From: Cyclobacteriaceae bacterium
GTDB taxonomy: Bacteria; Bacteroidota; Bacteroidia; Cytophagales; Cyclobacteriaceae
DNA length: 64,000 nucleotides
NCBI GenBank assembly: GCA_019638355.1
Contig: JAHBTY010000002.1
Coordinates: forward strand, 325,001-389,000
Reading direction: 5' to 3'
In this document: piece by piece, positions 36,376-43,597 of the stretch
Layout: every line of letters begins with the position of its first letter
How positions within the stretch are numbered: position 1 is the stretch's first letter
Notes under the pieces: generated by a model
Database searches by the model: none
What the model saw: only the letters and a program-made list of their open reading frames with translations
What the model was told of the DNA's origin: nothing
Made by a program: the position numbers and the translations under genes

Positions 36376-39243
36376 TTAAGCCACCATGCCTTGCTCAAAC
36401 ACTTCAACATATTCCTTCATCTTACCAATAATCCTTTCGCCAATTTCTCTTGCTTTCAAAATACTTGGGCGATCACCCAAGCACTTCAATACCTCTGCAC
36501 GTATTGGTTCTTGACCGCTATAAATGTAGGCATCGATCAAGGCTTTGAATTGTTCTTTATCTAACTGCTCGTCATCGCATAGTTTGGCAAGGGCCAATAC
36601 TTTTTGATCTTGCCAGTATTGTTCAAACTCTTCCTGAATGTTATCGGCATCGCTGATCTTGGGCAGGTTCTCTTCAATGAACTTCTCAATCAATTCGCGT
36701 TTGCTGCGCAACTGCACTTCGCTGTTCAGTAAGTCCATGATGGCCTTCTTCTGTTTGGCAGCATCGCTGGTTTTTGTTTGCTTGAGTTTTGTAATTAATT
36801 TCAGAATATAGGCAACATTGATCAGGTCGCGGTGGATGAGCTCGACTTCAAAGTCAATGTCGTGGAGGATAGAGGTTTTAATCTTCGCGTTGTCGCGCTT
36901 TACTTTATCGTACAGGTCGAGATACTTGGTTTGATAGTTAAGGAAAGTTTCTTCATCAATACCCAATCCCTCCCAGCTAAAATCAGTGTAGGATTCCAGG
37001 ACGTTCTTCGCCCGTAATAATGCGCGGAAGGCTTTAATGAAAGCTGCTTCATCCTCTTCGCTGGCCAGGTCATCCACACTTTGCCAGGTAGGTGCAATTG
37101 TCAACAAATTCTTTAAAGCTTCGTCAAACTTCGCGGCAATCTTTTCGAATGGTGGAAGAATGATTTCTTCAATGGCTTCCTTATTCGAAAACAGTGTAAT
37201 GGATTTGTCGGTAGCCTCTTTCAGGTTACGAAATACCAGGATGTTTCCCTGCGATTTCTTTTCACCCAGTATCCGGTTCGTGCGTGAATACGCCTGGAGC
37301 AAGCCATGATGCTTCAGATTCTTATCGACATAGAGGGTGTTCACTTTCTTGGCATCGAAACCGGTGAGGAACATATTTACTACCAGCAATAAATCAAGTC
37401 GATCCTTCTCGTCATTGAACGACCGCTTCTCGCGCTCTTTCAGTCGCTTGCTGATGTCTTTGAAGTACCCTTCAAACAATTTGTCGTCTTTGGTTGAAAA
37501 GGCGGTGCCATACAATTTGTTGTAGTCGGCAATGAAGACTTCCAGTTTATCGCGATTGTGCGAGGACTGATAGCTTACTTTGGGATCGGCAGCCATTGGC
37601 AATTCATCAGGGAGAAAATCCTGTGCATCTTCGTCATCGTCATTCACTCCGTAGGTAAAGATGGTAGCGATTCGAAGGTCATGTTCCCCGGCTTCTTTCT
37701 TGCGTTTAAAGATCTCGTAGTACTTGATCAGGTTTTCGATGCTGCTGACAGCAAACAAAGCCGAAAACTCCTTGTCGAAGGTTTTTTGATTGTGATACGA
37801 AAGAATGTAATCGGCAATTTTTTCTAACCGCTTCGGGTCGTTCAGCACTTCCGGACGATCGATATCCTCCACTTCAATATCAAAGAGTGTATTGCCTTTC
37901 TGTTTGTACTTGCCAATGTATTCAATGCCAAACCTCAGCACGTTCTGATCACGGATTGCATCTGTGATTACATACTTATGCAAGCATTTTCCAAAGAGAT
38001 CTTTTGTTGTGCGCTTGCCGTATTCGTTCTTGCTGGCATTGTCGGCAAAGATGGGTGTGCCGGTGAATCCAAAAAGCTGAGCCTTGTTAAAGTATTTTAT
38101 GATCCGGTCGTGTGTATCGCCAAACTGCGAACGGTGACACTCATCGAAAATGAAAACGATCTTCTTATCGCGCAGGTGCGTGAGTTTGTTTTCGAAATGC
38201 GCTTTGTTGATGGCGTTGTTCAGCTTTTGAATGGTGGTGAGCACGAGTTTGGTATCGTCTGTTAATTGCTTCACCAGCATGGCCGTGTTGTCGGTAGCAT
38301 CCACGCTGTCTTTCTTGAACGCATTAAACTCGTTCATGGTCTGGTAGTCGAGATCTTTGCGGTCGACTACAAACACTACTTTGTACACCTGCGGCAAGTC
38401 CATAATAATCTGGCTCGCCTTAAACGAAGTAAGTGTTTTGCCCGAACCGGTAGTATGCCAGATGTAGCCATTGTCGTTGCTGGTGCTTACCTGTTTGATG
38501 ATGTTCTCCACTGCATAATATTGATAAGGTCGCAGCACCATCAAATTTTTGAACGTTTCATTCAGCACAACGTAGTTCGAAATGTAATTGCCCAAGTGAG
38601 CCGGGTTGAGAAATGCATTTGCAAAAGTGCTGAGTTCGGTAATGTTCTTGTTGTTCTCATCCGCCCAGAAAAAGGTTTGCAGTACCGACTGCAGCTCGTT
38701 GTTCGCTAAATACTTTGTGTTTACTCCGTTGCTGATGACAAATAGCTGCACATACTGAAACAACCCATAGTTGCTCCAGAACGAATGCTTTTGATATCGA
38801 TTAATTTGGTTAAACGCTTCTTTGATTTCAACACCTTTTCGCTTGAGTTCAATTTGAACCAGCGGCAAGCCATTGACGAGCAACGTTACATCGAACCGAT
38901 TTTTGTAGCTGCCCTCCAGCGTTATCTGGTTGCTAATCTGGTACAGGTTCTTTGAAGGAGCCTCGGTATTGAAAAAACGAACGTAAAACGAAGTGCCATC
39001 TTCCCGCAAAAGATTGTATCGGTCTTTCAGTGTTTTAGCTTTATCAAACACATTGCCTTTGGCGAGGTGATTGAGTATGGCATTAAATTCCTTTTGAGAA
39101 AATGATATTTTATTGAATGATTCGAGTTGGGTTTGGAGATTGGACAATAACTCATTTCCATCAGCAATGCGAACAGATTGATAACCTAATCCAACCAATT
39201 GTTGGATTAGATTATTTTCTAATATCGCTTCTGACTGCACCAT
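36376..39243 (-). CDS. hsdR: Type I restriction enzyme, R subunit
   Basis: A 955-residue motor-nuclease subunit. The N-terminal PD-(D/E)xK nuclease has Asp118 (NRFDVTLL), Glu132 and Lys134 (IELKRKG). A superfamily 2 translocase follows, with Walker A TTGSGKT (264-270), DECH (367-370) and GFTGTPIF. A C-terminal helical domain ends the protein. All core motifs are intact, so it should cut non-methylated DNA after translocation. I use ATG 39241-39243, which overlaps the abi stop as TAATG; upstream in-frame residues are not conserved. It is the last gene of the hsd operon. Confidence 0.94.
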   Translation of the reverse strand: MVQSEAILENNLIQQLVGLGYQSVRIADGNELLSNLQTQLESFNKISFSQKEFNAILNHLAKGNVFDKAKTLKDRYNLLREDGTSFYVRFFNTEAPSKNLYQISNQITLEGSYKNRFDVTLLVNGLPLVQIELKRKGVEIKEAFNQINRYQKHSFWSNYGLFQYVQLFVISNGVNTKYLANNELQSVLQTFFWADENNKNITELSTFANAFLNPAHLGNYISNYVVLNETFKNLMVLRPYQYYAVENIIKQVSTSNDNGYIWHTTGSGKTLTSFKASQIIMDLPQVYKVVFVVDRKDLDYQTMNEFNAFKKDSVDATDNTAMLVKQLTDDTKLVLTTIQKLNNAINKAHFENKLTHLRDKKIVFIFDECHRSQFGDTHDRIIKYFNKAQLFGFTGTPIFADNASKNEYGKRTTKDLFGKCLHKYVITDAIRDQNVLRFGIEYIGKYKQKGNTLFDIEVEDIDRPEVLNDPKRLEKIADYILSYHNQKTFDKEFSALFAVSSIENLIKYYEIFKRKKEAGEHDLRIATIFTYGVNDDDEDAQDFLPDELPMAADPKVSYQSSHNRDKLEVFIADYNKLYGTAFSTKDDKLFEGYFKDISKRLKEREKRSFNDEKDRLDLLLVVNMFLTGFDAKKVNTLYVDKNLKHHGLLQAYSRTNRILGEKKSQGNILVFRNLKEATDKSITLFSNKEAIEEIILPPFEKIAAKFDEALKNLLTIAPTWQSVDDLASEEDEAAFIKAFRALLRAKNVLESYTDFSWEGLGIDEETFLNYQTKYLDLYDKVKRDNAKIKTSILHDIDFEVELIHRDLINVAYILKLITKLKQTKTSDAAKQKKAIMDLLNSEVQLRSKRELIEKFIEENLPKISDADNIQEEFEQYWQDQKVLALAKLCDDEQLDKEQFKALIDAYIYSGQEPIRAEVLKCLGDRPSILKAREIGERIIGKMKEYVEVFEQGMVA

Positions 39244-40190
39244 TATTGCCAAAGTGGTTCTGCTCTCCAATCTAATCGATTTCCTTTTCCATCGGAAGGA
39301 ATTCCCAAAAACTGTATGGGCACGTTGGGGTATTTAGCAAACAACGCTTCTAGTTTTGTCTTCAGACTATTACCGGGATTTGCCCGCAGCAACAAATACC
39401 GTAACACACAAATAAAATAAAACGTCCGTTTGTTATTTTGGAAAGGTTGCCCGATCCAAGGGCCTACCGCCTTGATCAACCGATCAGGTTCAATGGCCAG
39501 ATCGCGGTTCCACAGGCGCGAATGGTGCGCACATAAGTTGCGCACATAGGTTAACGTATGAAGCCACGAAGTAAACACGGTATGGTGCACCTCAAAAAAA
39601 TCAGCAATTCGTTTTTTATCACTGTTGTTTCGAAAGCCGCGATAAATGTGCGAAAGCTCACCGATGGTCAGTAATTCAAGGCACATCCATGCGGGAGGAT
39701 TTGCCGGGGTGTGATAGGTATCAATGTAATGCTTAATGAATACTTCCGGAGTTCGGGCGGTTTTTGCTTTGGAAATAATGGACTGCAAATCCTGGTAGGG
39801 ATCAACCAATGCACCGATTTTATTATAGAAAGGTGTAATGAAGTGCGCCTGATTATCCTGCCAATGCGAATCATTATGATGCATGGCCATCTGGTAAATC
39901 ATTTGTGTACGGATGGCTATTTCAATACGCTCGATACAATCGAACACCAGCAGCCGAAATTCACGATCAAAAGAATAGGTATCAATAATCTGATCGAACG
40001 TAACGCCTGCGTTGAATTGATCTTTAACAGCCTGATAGGGTAAAAAGTAGGCGCTGAGTCGGTAATAACTAATCTCCTTTAAATAGCTGATGGCTTTGGC
40101 CTGATCAGGCACGGCAAGGCCACGGGTTTGCATCAACTGCAATTGATCCTGAAACGACAGTGGAGTTTTACTGTAGCTTTTTTTAGCCAT
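39243..40190 (-). CDS. Abi family protein (Abi_2, AbiD/AbiF type)
   Basis: A 315-residue protein of the abortive-infection Abi_2 family. The N-terminal TPLSFQDQLQLMQTRGLAVPD and AISYLKEISYYRLSAYFLPYQ, and later YSFDREFRLLVFDCIERIEIAIRT, are hallmarks. The C-terminal RNLCAHHSRLWNRDL gives a HEPN-like R-x4-H motif used in RNA cleavage. Phage defence by Abi_2 is known in Lactococcus; here the gene lies inside the restriction operon between hsdS and hsdR. The ATG gives MAKKSYSKTPLSF. A hairpin with a T-run precedes it. Confidence 0.88.
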   Translation of the reverse strand: MAKKSYSKTPLSFQDQLQLMQTRGLAVPDQAKAISYLKEISYYRLSAYFLPYQAVKDQFNAGVTFDQIIDTYSFDREFRLLVFDCIERIEIAIRTQMIYQMAMHHNDSHWQDNQAHFITPFYNKIGALVDPYQDLQSIISKAKTARTPEVFIKHYIDTYHTPANPPAWMCLELLTIGELSHIYRGFRNNSDKKRIADFFEVHHTVFTSWLHTLTYVRNLCAHHSRLWNRDLAIEPDRLIKAVGPWIGQPFQNNKRTFYFICVLRYLLLRANPGNSLKTKLEALFAKYPNVPIQFLGIPSDGKGNRLDWRAEPLWQ

Positions 40191-40201
40191 GGCTATAAAA
40201 G

Positions 40202-40243
40202 AAAAAACCCCCCAAGTGTGCATCAGAGAGAGGCATGGAGGGT
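40202..40243 (-). terminator. Terminator-like hairpin in the abi leader
   Basis: On the minus strand ACCCTCCA pairs with TTGGGGGGT (8 bp, one G-U) around a 20-base loop and is followed by TTTTTT. It lies 12 bp before the abi start and 120 bp after hsdS, so it could end the hsdM-hsdS transcript or attenuate abi-hsdR. Confidence 0.45.
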
Positions 40244-40364: not shown

Positions 40365-41570
40365 TCATACAAACATCTGTTGCAACAATCCTTTTTTAAA
40401 CGTTTGGGTGTGGGTTATTTGCGTGGCCACACCTTCTATTTTTGCATCCAGCGCGGTGAGGAAGCTGGCGATTTTTTGTTGCTCCTTCGGAGAAGGAACA
40501 TTGATTTTTATTGACTTTATATCATCTCCATTCACTGCTGTGAAGGTACTTCCCTGCTCAAGGCGTTTCCATTTAGACTCATAGTCAACCAAAACTTGAT
40601 ACAAATAATTGATGTCTGACAATTCATTATTTCTTATAGCGCAAACCCCCCGCCCGATACATGCTTTGTGTATTGACTTTGATATTGAGCCAACAGGCGC
40701 CCTCACCGTGAGTAATAAGTCACCAACGTCACACACTTTTGTTGGTTCACTTGTCCACTGCCGTGGATTGGAAATTCTCTCACTTATATCTGCGTTTCCT
40801 TGGATCAAAGGCAATCCCTTGCCTTCACTATTGTATGAGCTCGAATCTGGTGATTGCCCCATAGTTATCACACTAACCTCTCCCAACCTTTTCTCCTCCC
40901 ACTTCGAATAAGCTTTCCCATTTTCATCTTTGAAGCGGAGCTTGCCCGAGAAGAGTTGTTGCATCACACCTTTTTTGTAATGCTCCAGCAATTCTTTTTT
41001 GCGCGTGAGCTGCTGTATCTTTTCATCTACCTCACTTAAAAACGAAGCGATTTTTTGTTGTTCGGGGAGGGTGGGAAGATTTAACGGAATACTTTTACAA
41101 ACTTCTTGATTCAACTTTGGCTGAGCTGTCCCAGTGTTATAAATTTCGTAGTTTGTTTTTTCGAGAATATGAGTAAGAAAATCAATGTCAGTATCCCGAT
41201 TTGGTTTAATAACATGAGCGTGATTATTAACCCAACACTTTCCAACGACCTTAAATGCAAGAGGTAAATTCCTTGAAACAATGTTTTCACCATCTTCACC
41301 AAGAAGAATTATTTCATCATCGAATATATAATCATTCACAAAATCAATAATTCCTGAAGCTCCATAGTAAGGAAATTGACCCCTCATCTTTGCTCTATCA
41401 CTTTCTTTAATGGGCTTTCTCTTTCCATCTAAAAAGACAGAAACATCCGATAGCTTCTTATTAATCCATCCACTCTTGAACTCCTTAAACCTCAGCTTAG
41501 GAGCAGTAGGTTTTTTCTTTTCACTATAAGCTTTTTCGTCACTCATATCTCGCACGAAGGATTGAGGCAT
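40365..41570 (-). CDS. hsdS: Type I restriction enzyme, specificity subunit
   Basis: A 401-residue two-domain target-recognition protein. The first recognition domain spans about 30-165 and the second about 225-350 (GEVSVITMGQSPDSSSYNSE). The two conserved helical spacers repeat as LPEQQKIASFLSEVDEKIQQL and PKEQQKIASFLTALDAKI. It directs HsdM and HsdR to a bipartite target. ATG 41570 is directly next to the repeat cassette; an internal ATG at 41546 (MSDEKAYSEKKK) is an equally good start and perhaps the original one. Confidence 0.92.
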   Translation of the reverse strand: MPQSFVRDMSDEKAYSEKKKPTAPKLRFKEFKSGWINKKLSDVSVFLDGKRKPIKESDRAKMRGQFPYYGASGIIDFVNDYIFDDEIILLGEDGENIVSRNLPLAFKVVGKCWVNNHAHVIKPNRDTDIDFLTHILEKTNYEIYNTGTAQPKLNQEVCKSIPLNLPTLPEQQKIASFLSEVDEKIQQLTRKKELLEHYKKGVMQQLFSGKLRFKDENGKAYSKWEEKRLGEVSVITMGQSPDSSSYNSEGKGLPLIQGNADISERISNPRQWTSEPTKVCDVGDLLLTVRAPVGSISKSIHKACIGRGVCAIRNNELSDINYLYQVLVDYESKWKRLEQGSTFTAVNGDDIKSIKINVPSPKEQQKIASFLTALDAKIEGVATQITHTQTFKKGLLQQMFV

Positions 41571-41612
41571 TTGTCAGAATTTGGATTTTTAGGATTCATG
41601 GATGGTTGGATT
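41571..41612 (-). repeat. Left terminal inverted repeat of the GxxExxY cassette
   Basis: Begins TTGTCAGAATTTGGATT, then a 9-base insertion, then CATGGATGGTTGGAT. The first 17 bp match the right end exactly in inverted orientation. The GxxExxY stop codon and last six codons lie inside it. Confidence 0.85.
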
Positions 41613-41996
41613 TCGTTTATTAAGTGGATGACGTAACCGCTTTACTTCCAGACTTTGAGCGCCAAAGTTTAACAAGAGGCCCAGGTCAACTTTGTAGGCC
41701 ACGAGGTAGTTCAGTCCTTGCGCCAGATGCACATCTTCCAATTTTGTTAATGCTTTTAATTCAACCATTACTTTTTGTTCAACCAAAAAATCTACTCTCC
41801 TGCTGCCTATGGGTTGATCATCATAAAACAGTGGCATCTCTAACTCGCGTTCAAAACTCAAACCTTGTTTTGTCATTTCAATAGCCAACGCCCTTTGGTA
41901 GATCACTTCCTGAAATCCATTACCTAAAACGGAATGCACTTTCATGGCGCACCCTATGATTTTGTAAGTCAAGTCATCTTTAATCTCTTCCTTCAT
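41589..41996 (-). CDS. GxxExxY protein, PD-(D/E)xK nuclease-like
   Basis: A 135-residue protein of the PDDEXK_3/GxxExxY family. The name-giving motif is GFQEVIY (Gly27, Glu30, Tyr33). The predicted nuclease core is Asp69 (RRVDFLV) with Glu79 and Lys81 (VMVELKAL), so the catalytic residues are intact. No function is established for this family. The gene sits between hsdM and hsdS inside an inverted-repeat cassette. The last residues (RNPTIHES) are encoded by the repeat itself. Confidence 0.88.
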   Translation of the reverse strand: MKEEIKDDLTYKIIGCAMKVHSVLGNGFQEVIYQRALAIEMTKQGLSFERELEMPLFYDDQPIGSRRVDFLVEQKVMVELKALTKLEDVHLAQGLNYLVAYKVDLGLLLNFGAQSLEVKRLRHPLNKRNPTIHES

Positions 41997-42013
41997 TCTG
42001 TTCTAATCCTTTT

Positions 42014-42045
42014 ATCCAACCATCCCACGAATCCAAATTCTGACA
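42014..42045 (-). repeat. Right terminal inverted repeat of the GxxExxY cassette
   Basis: On the minus strand: TTGTCAGAATTTGGATT then CGTGGGATGGTTGGAT. It ends one base before the hsdM stop codon. It matches the left end over 17 bp exactly and over most of the next 15 bp after one gap. Confidence 0.85.
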
Positions 42046-42046
42046 A

Positions 42047-43597
42047 TTAGAATGGTGCGTCTATTCCCAACTCCTTACAAAACTTTTCAATGGAAGCATC
42101 GGTGGTTTTCATGTCGGCATCGAGTTTCTTCAATTCTTTCGCCACGGCTTTCAGGTTCACCGCTTCTTCTTCTTCGAACGTATCTACATAGCGCGGTATA
42201 TTCAGGTTGTAGTCGTTCTCAGCTATCTCTTTCAATGAAGCTACATAGCTGTACTTGTCTTCTTCTGTGCGCGCTTTATAGGTGTTTACGATCTTATCAA
42301 TATCCTGCGGCCGCAGAAAGTTTTGGGTTTTCACTTTTTCAAAGTGCTGGCTGGCATCGATGAACAACACGTTATCGCTGTGCTCGCGCTTTTTCTTTAC
42401 CACCATAATACACGTGGGTATGCCGGTGCCATAAAAAATATTGGCGGGCAAACCAATAATGGCATCGAGGTAGTTTTTCTCTTTGATAAGATACTCGCGT
42501 ATGTGGCCTTCGGCTCCACCACGGAAGAGTACACCATGCGGCAACACACAGGCCATGGTGCCTTTGTCATCCAACTGGTGAATCATGTGCTGCACAAAAG
42601 CAAAGTCGGCTGTGCCTTTGGGTGCAAGTTTGCCGTAGGCGGCAAAGCGGTCGTCACTCATAAACAACGGGCTGGCACTCCACACGGCAGAGAAAGGCGG
42701 GTTGGCTACAATGGCCTCAAAGCGCATGTCCAAATGCTGGGGGCTTTCTAATGTATCATCCCTCTTAATATCAAACTTTTTGAAATGCAGGTCGTGCATG
42801 ATCATGTTCATGCGACATAAGTTGTACGTAGTCGGATTACTTTCCTGTCCATAAAACGCACCTACTTCTACCTCCTTGCCCACACGTAACAGCAAAGATC
42901 CTGAACCACACGTGGGATCATATGCGTTTTTAATTCTCTTCTTACCTACTGTAACCAATCGAGCTAATACAGTACTCACTTGCTGAGGCGTGTAGAATTC
43001 TCCAGCTTTCTTCCCAGCGCCACTCGCAAATTTTCCGATCAGGTATTCATAAGCATCACCTAAAACATCATTCTGAAGATTATCAAGATCGAAGTTAATC
43101 TGGTCCAAATGCTGCATAACACGAACCACCAGTTTATTCTTTTCATCCTCAGTTTTGCCAAGTTTGCTACTGCGCAAATCCAGGTCTTCAAAGAGATGAC
43201 TAAACTCTTCTTCACTAGCTGTACCCATGGTACTTTGCTCAAGGTTGTTGAGTATTTTTGCAAGTTCATCCAATATGAAATGTGCTTTACCTTCCGCATT
43301 AGTACGCGATGCAAGCGCACCAAATAATTCAGAAGGTTTCAGATAGTAACCTAAGGTATCTATGGCTTCTGCTCGTACGTGAAATAGGATTTCTTTATCT
43401 TCCTTCTTGTCTTCATCAATATCTAAATAGGTGATTCCGTCTGGTTCTAAAATTTCATCTGCATAGGAATGCATTTTCTCGCTGAGGTACTTGTAGAAAA
43501 TGAACCCAAGGATGTAATCCCTGAAATCATCGGCATCCATTTTTCCGCGTAGGGTATCGGCTAATCTCCAAAGGAGTTGTTTGAGGTCTTCAGGCAT
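42047..43597 (-). CDS. hsdM: Type I restriction enzyme, M subunit (N6-adenine methyltransferase)
   Basis: A 516-residue methyltransferase. The helical HsdM_N domain spans about 5-160. The SAM site is DPTCGSGSLLLRVG (227-240), and the catalytic motif is NPPFSAVW (299-306). It methylates adenine in the HsdS-defined target and forms the core of the restriction complex. It is the first gene of the operon and is followed at once by the GxxExxY cassette. Confidence 0.94.
   Translation of the reverse strand: MPEDLKQLLWRLADTLRGKMDADDFRDYILGFIFYKYLSEKMHSYADEILEPDGITYLDIDEDKKEDKEILFHVRAEAIDTLGYYLKPSELFGALASRTNAEGKAHFILDELAKILNNLEQSTMGTASEEEFSHLFEDLDLRSSKLGKTEDEKNKLVVRVMQHLDQINFDLDNLQNDVLGDAYEYLIGKFASGAGKKAGEFYTPQQVSTVLARLVTVGKKRIKNAYDPTCGSGSLLLRVGKEVEVGAFYGQESNPTTYNLCRMNMIMHDLHFKKFDIKRDDTLESPQHLDMRFEAIVANPPFSAVWSASPLFMSDDRFAAYGKLAPKGTADFAFVQHMIHQLDDKGTMACVLPHGVLFRGGAEGHIREYLIKEKNYLDAIIGLPANIFYGTGIPTCIMVVKKKREHSDNVLFIDASQHFEKVKTQNFLRPQDIDKIVNTYKARTEEDKYSYVASLKEIAENDYNLNIPRYVDTFEEEEAVNLKAVAKELKKLDADMKTTDASIEKFCKELGIDAPF

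Follow-up and report, generated by a model that had tools for sequence, protein, structure and literature searches.

The window, that is, the whole 64,000-nucleotide stretch of a Cyclobacteriaceae genome analyzed here, contains a type I hsd operon in which a small inverted-repeat cassette lies between the methylase and specificity genes. The relevant features are as follows.

Positions 42047..43597, minus strand: hsdM, the upstream neighbour in the operon; the same junction is empty in relatives G009 and G010.
Positions 41571..42046, no strand assigned: the whole cassette, 476 bp, from hsdM stop to hsdS start.
Positions 42005..42046, no strand assigned: inverted-repeat arm on the hsdM side; its outer end abuts the hsdM stop codon.
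Positions 41589..41996, minus strand: GxxExxY gene, 135 aa, with a predicted PD-(D/E)XK (Cas4/RecB-like) nuclease fold; its 3' end is within the arm.
Positions 41571..41612, no strand assigned: inverted-repeat arm on the hsdS side, with a GGATT-type motif every 8-10 nt; its outer end TTGTCAG abuts the hsdS ATG.
Positions 40365..41570, minus strand: hsdS, the downstream neighbour in the operon.
Positions 39243-40223, minus strand: Abi_2 (Abi-like) gene of this operon, located after hsdS and ahead of hsdR.
Positions 36376-39270, minus strand: hsdR; the operon reads in the order hsdM > cassette > hsdS > Abi_2 > hsdR.

The two arms measure 42 nt each, with 32 of the 42 positions complementary and the outer 17 perfectly so, and their score was reached by none of 5000 dinucleotide shuffles of the flanks. 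They touch the hsdS ATG (41568-41570) and the hsdM stop codon (42047-42049) directly, with 0 bases between. The initial annotation had described a 475-bp cassette exactly filling the hsdM-hsdS junction; arms, gene and exact fit were confirmed, while the length was corrected to 476 bp and the end to 42046 instead of 42045. Its remark that the gene is partly encoded by the repeat also held, since the last 7 codons and the stop of the GxxExxY gene (NPTIHES*) fall inside the arm. As it had further stated, there is no transposase inside the cassette: the GxxExxY gene is the only ORF of at least 60 aa on its strand, and an 86-aa frame on the opposite strand overlaps it. A search of positions 41300-42300 against Rfam gave no match at E<=1. 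The exact 17-mer of the arms occurs in the window's own genome (G000) at the two ends of the cassette only, and solitary copies of this arm type in G000 do not clearly exceed the control (25 matches when 3 or fewer mismatches are allowed, both ends included, vs 19 for the reversed 17-mer).

The protein encoded by the cassette matched TIGR04256 (GxxExxY) with an E value of 4.5e-41 and 139.9 bits (cut-off 35) and PF13366 (PDDEXK_3) with an E value of 1.2e-39 and 135.7 bits (cut-off 22), which were the only matches in Pfam and NCBIfam. Asp69, Glu79 and Lys81, initially proposed as the residues of a PD-(D/E)XK core, are present and, together with E30 and Q93, invariant in a 16-sequence alignment, with Y97 nearly so; E30, D69, E79 and K81 are also invariant across 41 sequences. 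A structure model of the protein had a mean pLDDT of 89, and its best match among solved structures was SSO0001, which we take to be a Cas4 (E 4.4e-4, TM-score 0.53). A sequence search against solved structures gave no match, and PADLOC gave none for this protein at E<=0.1; among 3 relatives run through PADLOC, 1 had weak Cas4 matches at E<0.001. Given the best match of the model and the weak matches of this relative, the window protein looks like a small nuclease of the RecB/Cas4 type. The gene family is widespread, being present in 46 of the 58 genomes of a genus sample and in 59 of 118 sampled Bacteroidota genomes. The search of the own genome returned 10 matches, which we interpret as 7 genes, of which 4 are intact and 3 are broken. 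In the excerpts of open-licence full text that were available, preprints not included, the few papers naming the family give no role for it; one of them places a GxxExxY gene beside a reverse transcriptase and mentions that another program called it cas4 (PMC8934634), and another names GxxExxY (PMC12085832).

GxxExxY genes are associated with inverted repeats. In the own genome, 6 of the 7 copies lie between inverted repeats, the sequences of which differ by copy, as read from the flanks and in agreement with the shuffles; the remaining copy (L001) had no significant arm pair in the shuffle test. When these 7 copies were combined with the best copy from each of 29 genomes of the genus, 31 of the 36 loci were found to have flanking inverted repeats at p<=0.01. 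Among the best 80 GTDB loci to the window protein (at least 80 exist), one of which (L156) had no flank and was dropped, 58 of 79 passed the same test. Among these listed matches, the passing loci are mostly from Bacteroidota, and others belong to Calditrichia, Cyanobacteria, Chloroflexi, Fibrobacteria, Spirochaetae, Latescibacteria and Neomarinimicrobiota; Poribacteria, Deltaproteobacteria and Ignavibacterium are represented in the same list by one locus each, none of which passes. In a Bacteroidota sample made of the best-scoring copies of 30 genomes, minus one at a contig edge (L348), 23 of 29 loci passed. These counts shift when the shuffles are redrawn (89 of 115 GxxExxY loci had a significant repeat in one draw, 83 in the next).

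Several controls were applied. ParE genes of the same genus were inside inverted repeats at 1 of 22 loci, 8 of the 30 ParE loci having been dropped at contig edges. Among 91 control ORFs, taken from the window and from loci that had been selected for their cassettes or units, 10 were flagged, of which 2 were GxxExxY genes themselves, 1 shared a cassette arm, 5 lay in loci rich in units and 2 were plain. In a permuted-flank control that joined the upstream flank of one locus to the downstream flank of another, 0 of 36 loci were above the 99th percentile and 6 above the 95th; since near-identical loci (scoring as high as 390) and others with a motif in common occur in the permuted set, dinucleotide shuffles, ParE genes and other ORFs were used instead. 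The repeats are well above the shuffle and ParE controls and are hence not random with respect to GxxExxY genes, a point that the initial annotation had singled out. Direct repeats were also significant at 42 of the 79 near-relative loci (among the matches listed), and strong direct repeats occurred at several loci of the 36-locus genus and 29-locus Bacteroidota sets. Many GxxExxY flanks are repeat-rich in both senses, direct and inverted, and the direct-repeat signal is read as extra gene-less units beside the gene, such as are seen directly at the hsd junction of relatives.

Two classes of arms were distinguished. The first is an array of a GATT-like motif behind a TTGTC(T/A)GAA end, and the second an array of a CRCDRAG-like motif behind (TTA)ACC or CACGC. 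Successive copies of the commonest 4-mer were spaced by 8 nt (72 times), 9 nt (128 times) and 10 nt (29 times), as compared with about 8-12 occurrences of each spacing in shuffles. The left and right arms agree at 95% of the GATT-motif positions and at 81% of the positions outside, and the mismatches between arms, read on the sense strand, have no bias toward G-U over A-C (86 vs 107, p 0.15). Selection on RNA pairing of the arms was consequently rejected for want of a signal in this test. As the motif is kept better than its surroundings and a G-U bias is absent, the arms look like repeated protein sites in DNA, not like a helix formed at the RNA level.

The arm class follows the protein clade. 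A GATT arm was found on at least one side in 73 of the 79 relatives of the window protein, and among these listed matches none was labelled CRC. Of 33 genus copies of the 'GPG' type, 26 had a CRC arm on at least one side, 6 had none and 1 had a GATT arm on one side, whereas GATT arms were carried by the 2 'GNG' genus copies included in the test, each of them from the own genome. The nearest protein neighbour at no more than 85% identity carried the same arm label in at least 90 of 96 cases, against a shuffled mean of 57.6; this is a lower bound because a CRC label on one side was scored as unlike a CRC label on both sides, the label patterns are loose, and the bulk of the signal is the split between the two clades. 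The link between arm and clade extends across different sites and phyla, so that gene and arms look like one unit that is inherited together.

Of the 82 GxxExxY loci that had a significant repeat and both neighbours visible, 65 were co-directional with both neighbours, and in the own genome 44 of 83 triplets of genes were on one strand (Fisher p 5e-4); this baseline covers the window plus five stretches of 10 kb, all in a single genome, and the loci come from many genomes. The outer arm end had a median distance of 1 nt from the upstream neighbour and of 5 nt from the downstream one. The gap that would be left without the cassette was 30 nt or less in 46 of 65 cases, compared to 21 of 63 same-strand gene pairs of the same single-genome baseline (p 4e-5), and in G056 the arm itself was seen by eye to supply the hsdM stop codon. 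Together, co-direction, short arm distances and small residual gaps identify junction filling, as far as these loci can be read, as a habit of the class and not of every copy. The probable reason for the co-direction is that a gene without a promoter depends on the host transcript, or else that there is an RNA step. Exact junction filling is, from the same comparison, a general habit of such cassettes and nothing particular to hsd, and a regulatory hairpin specific to hsd was ruled out, similar cassettes being found at many other junctions.

The initial annotation had proposed looking for an empty site in close relatives, and such sites were found at hsd, at rnr and at further sites. Among 9 close hsdM loci, 5 have a GxxExxY gene at the hsdM-hsdS junction (G000, G056, G034, G011 and G028), some of them with gene-less units next to it. 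The junction is empty in 2, G010 and G009, the latter with an hsdM that is 94% identical, and in a further 2 (G036 and G042) hsdM is followed by another gene, with no arms at the junction. In one of the filled loci (L105, of G034), the GxxExxY gene and a gene-less unit are followed from ~3490 on by another copy of the hsdM 3' end, ~75 nt long, which by eye is nearer to the hsdM tail of G011 and runs into another cassette; our reading of this duplicated end is recombination or a captured flank.

At a second site, next to genes that we read from their sequence as rnr and a polyprenyl synthetase gene, 26 of 30 loci were read, with 330 nt covered on each side. Upstream of rnr, 4 of the 26 loci have a GxxExxY gene, the own copy being broken, and 3 have internally deleted relics; the downstream junction is filled in G000 only. 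Six loci (L071, L079, L083 and L086-L088) have upstream of rnr what we read as a RelE-like toxin gene in the place where others have the GxxExxY cassette; by this reading, the junction keeps receiving small genes.

Four further sites were compared by a joined-flank search in 15 chosen relatives together with 20 retrieved stretches. The first is filled in G000, where the gene is broken, and in G039, empty in G009, G024 and G008, and occupied by another gene in G018. At the second, full copies in G000 and G032 stand beside reduced ones in G024 and G013, and G039 has other sequence without GxxExxY. The third, that of L001, the copy without paired arms, is filled in G000 and empty in G008, and G009 retains repeat remnants and no gene. 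At the fourth, before a gene read as purH, the orientation of the GxxExxY gene in G000 is opposite to that in G013, G018 and G024; G030 agrees with G000 by coordinates. The proteins at this site are close, the pieces in G000 being 70-84% identical to the protein of G013, and the flip would be explained by an inversion between the arms or by re-insertion. Gene-less repeats were found at the same site in G009, G027, G034 and G020 and a different gene in G039, and G032 has no gene and a stretch of ~20 nt that may be a relic of an arm.

That cassettes come and go at orthologous sites is well supported by these comparisons. All comparisons of filled and empty sites are between species, and therefore no base-exact insertion or excision was seen. 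No target duplication of fixed length was detected among 33 GATT-type arm pairs at lengths 1-9 in comparison with shuffled pairs, the largest excess being 2 pairs at length 5 vs 0.25 expected. A search of plasmid records for filled and empty strain pairs gave 8 records with distant matches, and a phage search gave no match.

Units that lack the gene form another part of the picture. The pattern TTAACCRCDRAGN{1,3}CRCDRAG was found at 237 sites in the 58 genus genomes, with 0 sites for the reversed control. It is present in 34 of the 46 genomes that have GxxExxY and in 1 of the 12 that do not (Fisher 5e-5), in a set of related genomes and with the cassettes' own arms making up part of the count. 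In G031, which has a single GxxExxY match, 33 of 36 such sites are over 1 kb away from it. Many of the sites are gene-less palindromes of 62-135 nt, 25 of them distinct in the loci scanned and some in tandem. Arrays of gene-less palindromic units with a spacing of ~100 nt were seen at L211, L217 and L218 (G031 and G024).

The same kind of arrangement was found around an unrelated gene family. Genes of TIGR02436, a four-helix bundle, were inside inverted repeats at 17 of 30 loci of the genus, at 21 of 29 with new shuffles and at 18 in a third draw (L233, counted with wrong limits in the first figure, was left out of the second), and the direct-repeat control was significant at 2 of 30. Their arms have a period of 7 nt, with an autocorrelation of 0.61-0.63 at lags 7, 14 and 21 vs ~0.32. 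Wherever a TIGR02436 locus had a significant repeat and its two neighbours could be seen, the gene was co-directional with both (17 of 17, and 21 of 21 in another count), and within L225-L254 the genes flanked by a significant repeat occupy tight junctions of operons. One cassette design is, on this evidence, common to two proteins that are unrelated and differ in the period of their motif, which argues that the encoded protein reads the arms; the presence of TIGR02436, which is not a nuclease, in the same design means that the design can do without a nuclease. In the parts of the literature available, the TIGR02436 family is said to resemble Avd of diversity-generating retroelements (PMC10053308), and the 23S intervening sequence of Coxiella, which was called selfish, is described as having a 28-bp terminal repeat stem and heptamer repeats before its S23 gene and as being excised from rRNA by RNase III (PMC4990558). 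DUF559 is perhaps a third nuclease family with a palindrome of its own: of 30 loci, 19 with long open frames were left out and L304 was dropped, and 3 of the remaining 10 short-ORF loci have CCCTCTCC-type palindromes, which are not phased arms. At these loci (L286, L289 and L293), CCTCACCCC...CCCTCTCC palindromes are found on both sides of the nuclease gene.

The association of gene and repeats, the arm design and its link to the clade, the placement, the presence and absence among relatives, the decay and one inverted copy are all read from genome comparison, and taken together these observations point to a small mobile genetic element of a kind not yet described. The best reading, which we hold with some confidence, is a class of selfish cassettes without a transposase, the Cas4/RecB-like nuclease of which acts on its own arms. 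A single nuclease gene would lie between two arms of phased motif, forming one inherited unit that settles between co-directional genes, mostly at tight junctions, in such a way that the left arm comes directly after the upstream stop codon or provides it, while the right arm extends to the start codon of the next gene or close to it. Expression of the nuclease gene is probably driven by the host operon, and the product of the gene may bind the repeated arm motif and cut there or at a cruciform formed by the arms. Host repair would then copy or paste the unit into a new junction, or flip it, leaving no fixed target duplication, and decay would leave internally deleted copies and gene-less arm palindromes. 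A mobile cassette is well supported as a description and moderately supported as a mechanism. The proposal of a nuclease-driven selfish cassette made at the outset is therefore retained as to the selfish cassette, with the part played by the nuclease being inferred only, and the initial interpretation as a whole is partly supported. No paper describing such cassettes was found in the excerpts of open-licence full text available, preprints not included, which is weak evidence of novelty.

A broader and more tentative proposal, to which we give only limited credence, is that selfish junction cassettes exist in several phyla, each moved by its own small protein that reads arms of a register specific to it, and that the 23S intervening sequences are the same class landed in rRNA. 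A lone Cas4-like nuclease would read motifs 9+-1 nt apart and a ring-forming S23 protein motifs 7 nt apart, and the cassettes would hitch-hike on operons between stop and start and seed gene-less palindromes.

Among the alternatives, an RNA-level element like the 23S intervening sequences is considered unlikely. The arms would pair in the mRNA, RNase III would excise the unit, the operon would tolerate it and the gene would be cargo. It would fit with the occurrence of TIGR02436, the protein of the 23S intervening sequences, between arms of the same design, with the terminal inverted repeats, heptamers and RNase III excision of the Coxiella rRNA element in the part of the report available (PMC4990558), and with the fact that the cassettes are mostly read with the operon. 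The window arms also pair in the predicted RNA (z -2.2, with 3 of 100 shuffles equally good). However, the arm mismatches carry no G-U excess over A-C, the letters of the motif agree between arms more often than those around it, as is the case for protein sites in DNA, and at the site before purH the gene in G000 is oriented opposite to three relatives.

The arms may alternatively be acted on by a transposase or recombinase whose gene lies elsewhere, with GxxExxY as a passenger or accessory; an unlinked transposase was among the suggestions of the initial annotation. The use of one design by two unrelated genes, the existence of gene-less units and the absence of a transposase from the cassette itself would all be expected in this case, but arm type and GxxExxY clade go together and the two families of genes have different motif periods, which makes the encoded protein the likelier reader of the arms and the trans-acting enzyme rather improbable. 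A regulatory module of hsd, or of operons generally, in which the arms form an intercistronic hairpin that sets the product ratio, is very improbable: the exact fit between stop and start, the co-direction and the ability of the arms to fold in RNA agree with it, whereas the sporadic occurrence at many unrelated junctions, the decay and the empty sites in relatives and the missing G-U signal do not, and the suggestion in the initial annotation of a module separating methylase and specificity subunits was abandoned in view of these unrelated junctions. A stand-alone defence or addiction gene spread by homologous recombination of its flanks, with the repeats as incidental insertion targets, is hardly credible, since its neighbours, a type I system and an Abi_2 gene, speak for it but the PADLOC result and the fact that arms go with the gene clade and not with the site speak against it.

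If the nuclease of the favoured selfish cassette moves its own arms, the cassette would be a DNA element that owes its movement to a single PD-(D/E)XK nuclease. Families of dispersed palindromes in these genomes would be explained, the unexplained 23S rRNA intervening sequences would find their place in a wider class, and the purpose of small orphan nucleases between repeats becomes a testable question.

The cassette can be compared with several known systems. By score and catalytic residues, the window gene is a full member of TIGR04256 and PF13366, but these models cover the protein only, and arms, junction and gene-less units are outside them. The 23S rRNA intervening sequences, as far as the sources available describe them, likewise consist of one small gene between terminal inverted repeats, in sense orientation to the host transcript. 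However, they encode the S23 four-helix-bundle protein (TIGR02436, PF05635) where the window cassette has PF13366/TIGR04256, the motif period is 7 for TIGR02436 arms as opposed to 9+-1 for GxxExxY arms, and they are situated in rRNA, whereas the window cassette is in the protein-coding hsdM-hsdS operon.

MITEs and IS elements share with the cassettes the inverted termini at several copies, the gene-less derivatives and the empty sites. They differ in that the cassette has no transposase inside and no fixed target duplication in the 33 pairs analyzed, and in that its arm sequences vary between clades while the design stays constant. The likeness to Cas4 and RecB nucleases concerns the predicted fold and the catalytic residues, with SSO0001 as the best solved match, but GxxExxY proteins have ~120-135 residues; a cysteine cluster and a CRISPR context are characteristic of Cas4. 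RAYTs are single-strand transposases related to IS200 TnpA. The REPIN/RAYT systems resemble the cassettes in combining dispersed short palindromes with a presumed DNA-processing gene, the motif being found mostly in genomes that hold the gene, and in having gene-less palindromes, none of them shown for the window arm type in G000. The cassette gene, in contrast, is a PDDEXK_3 and not a RAYT (TnpA-REP), and the arms are phased motif arrays. The cassette is accordingly filed as a form of transposase-less element bounded by inverted repeats, nearest to the intervening sequences and to REPIN/RAYT and a member of neither.
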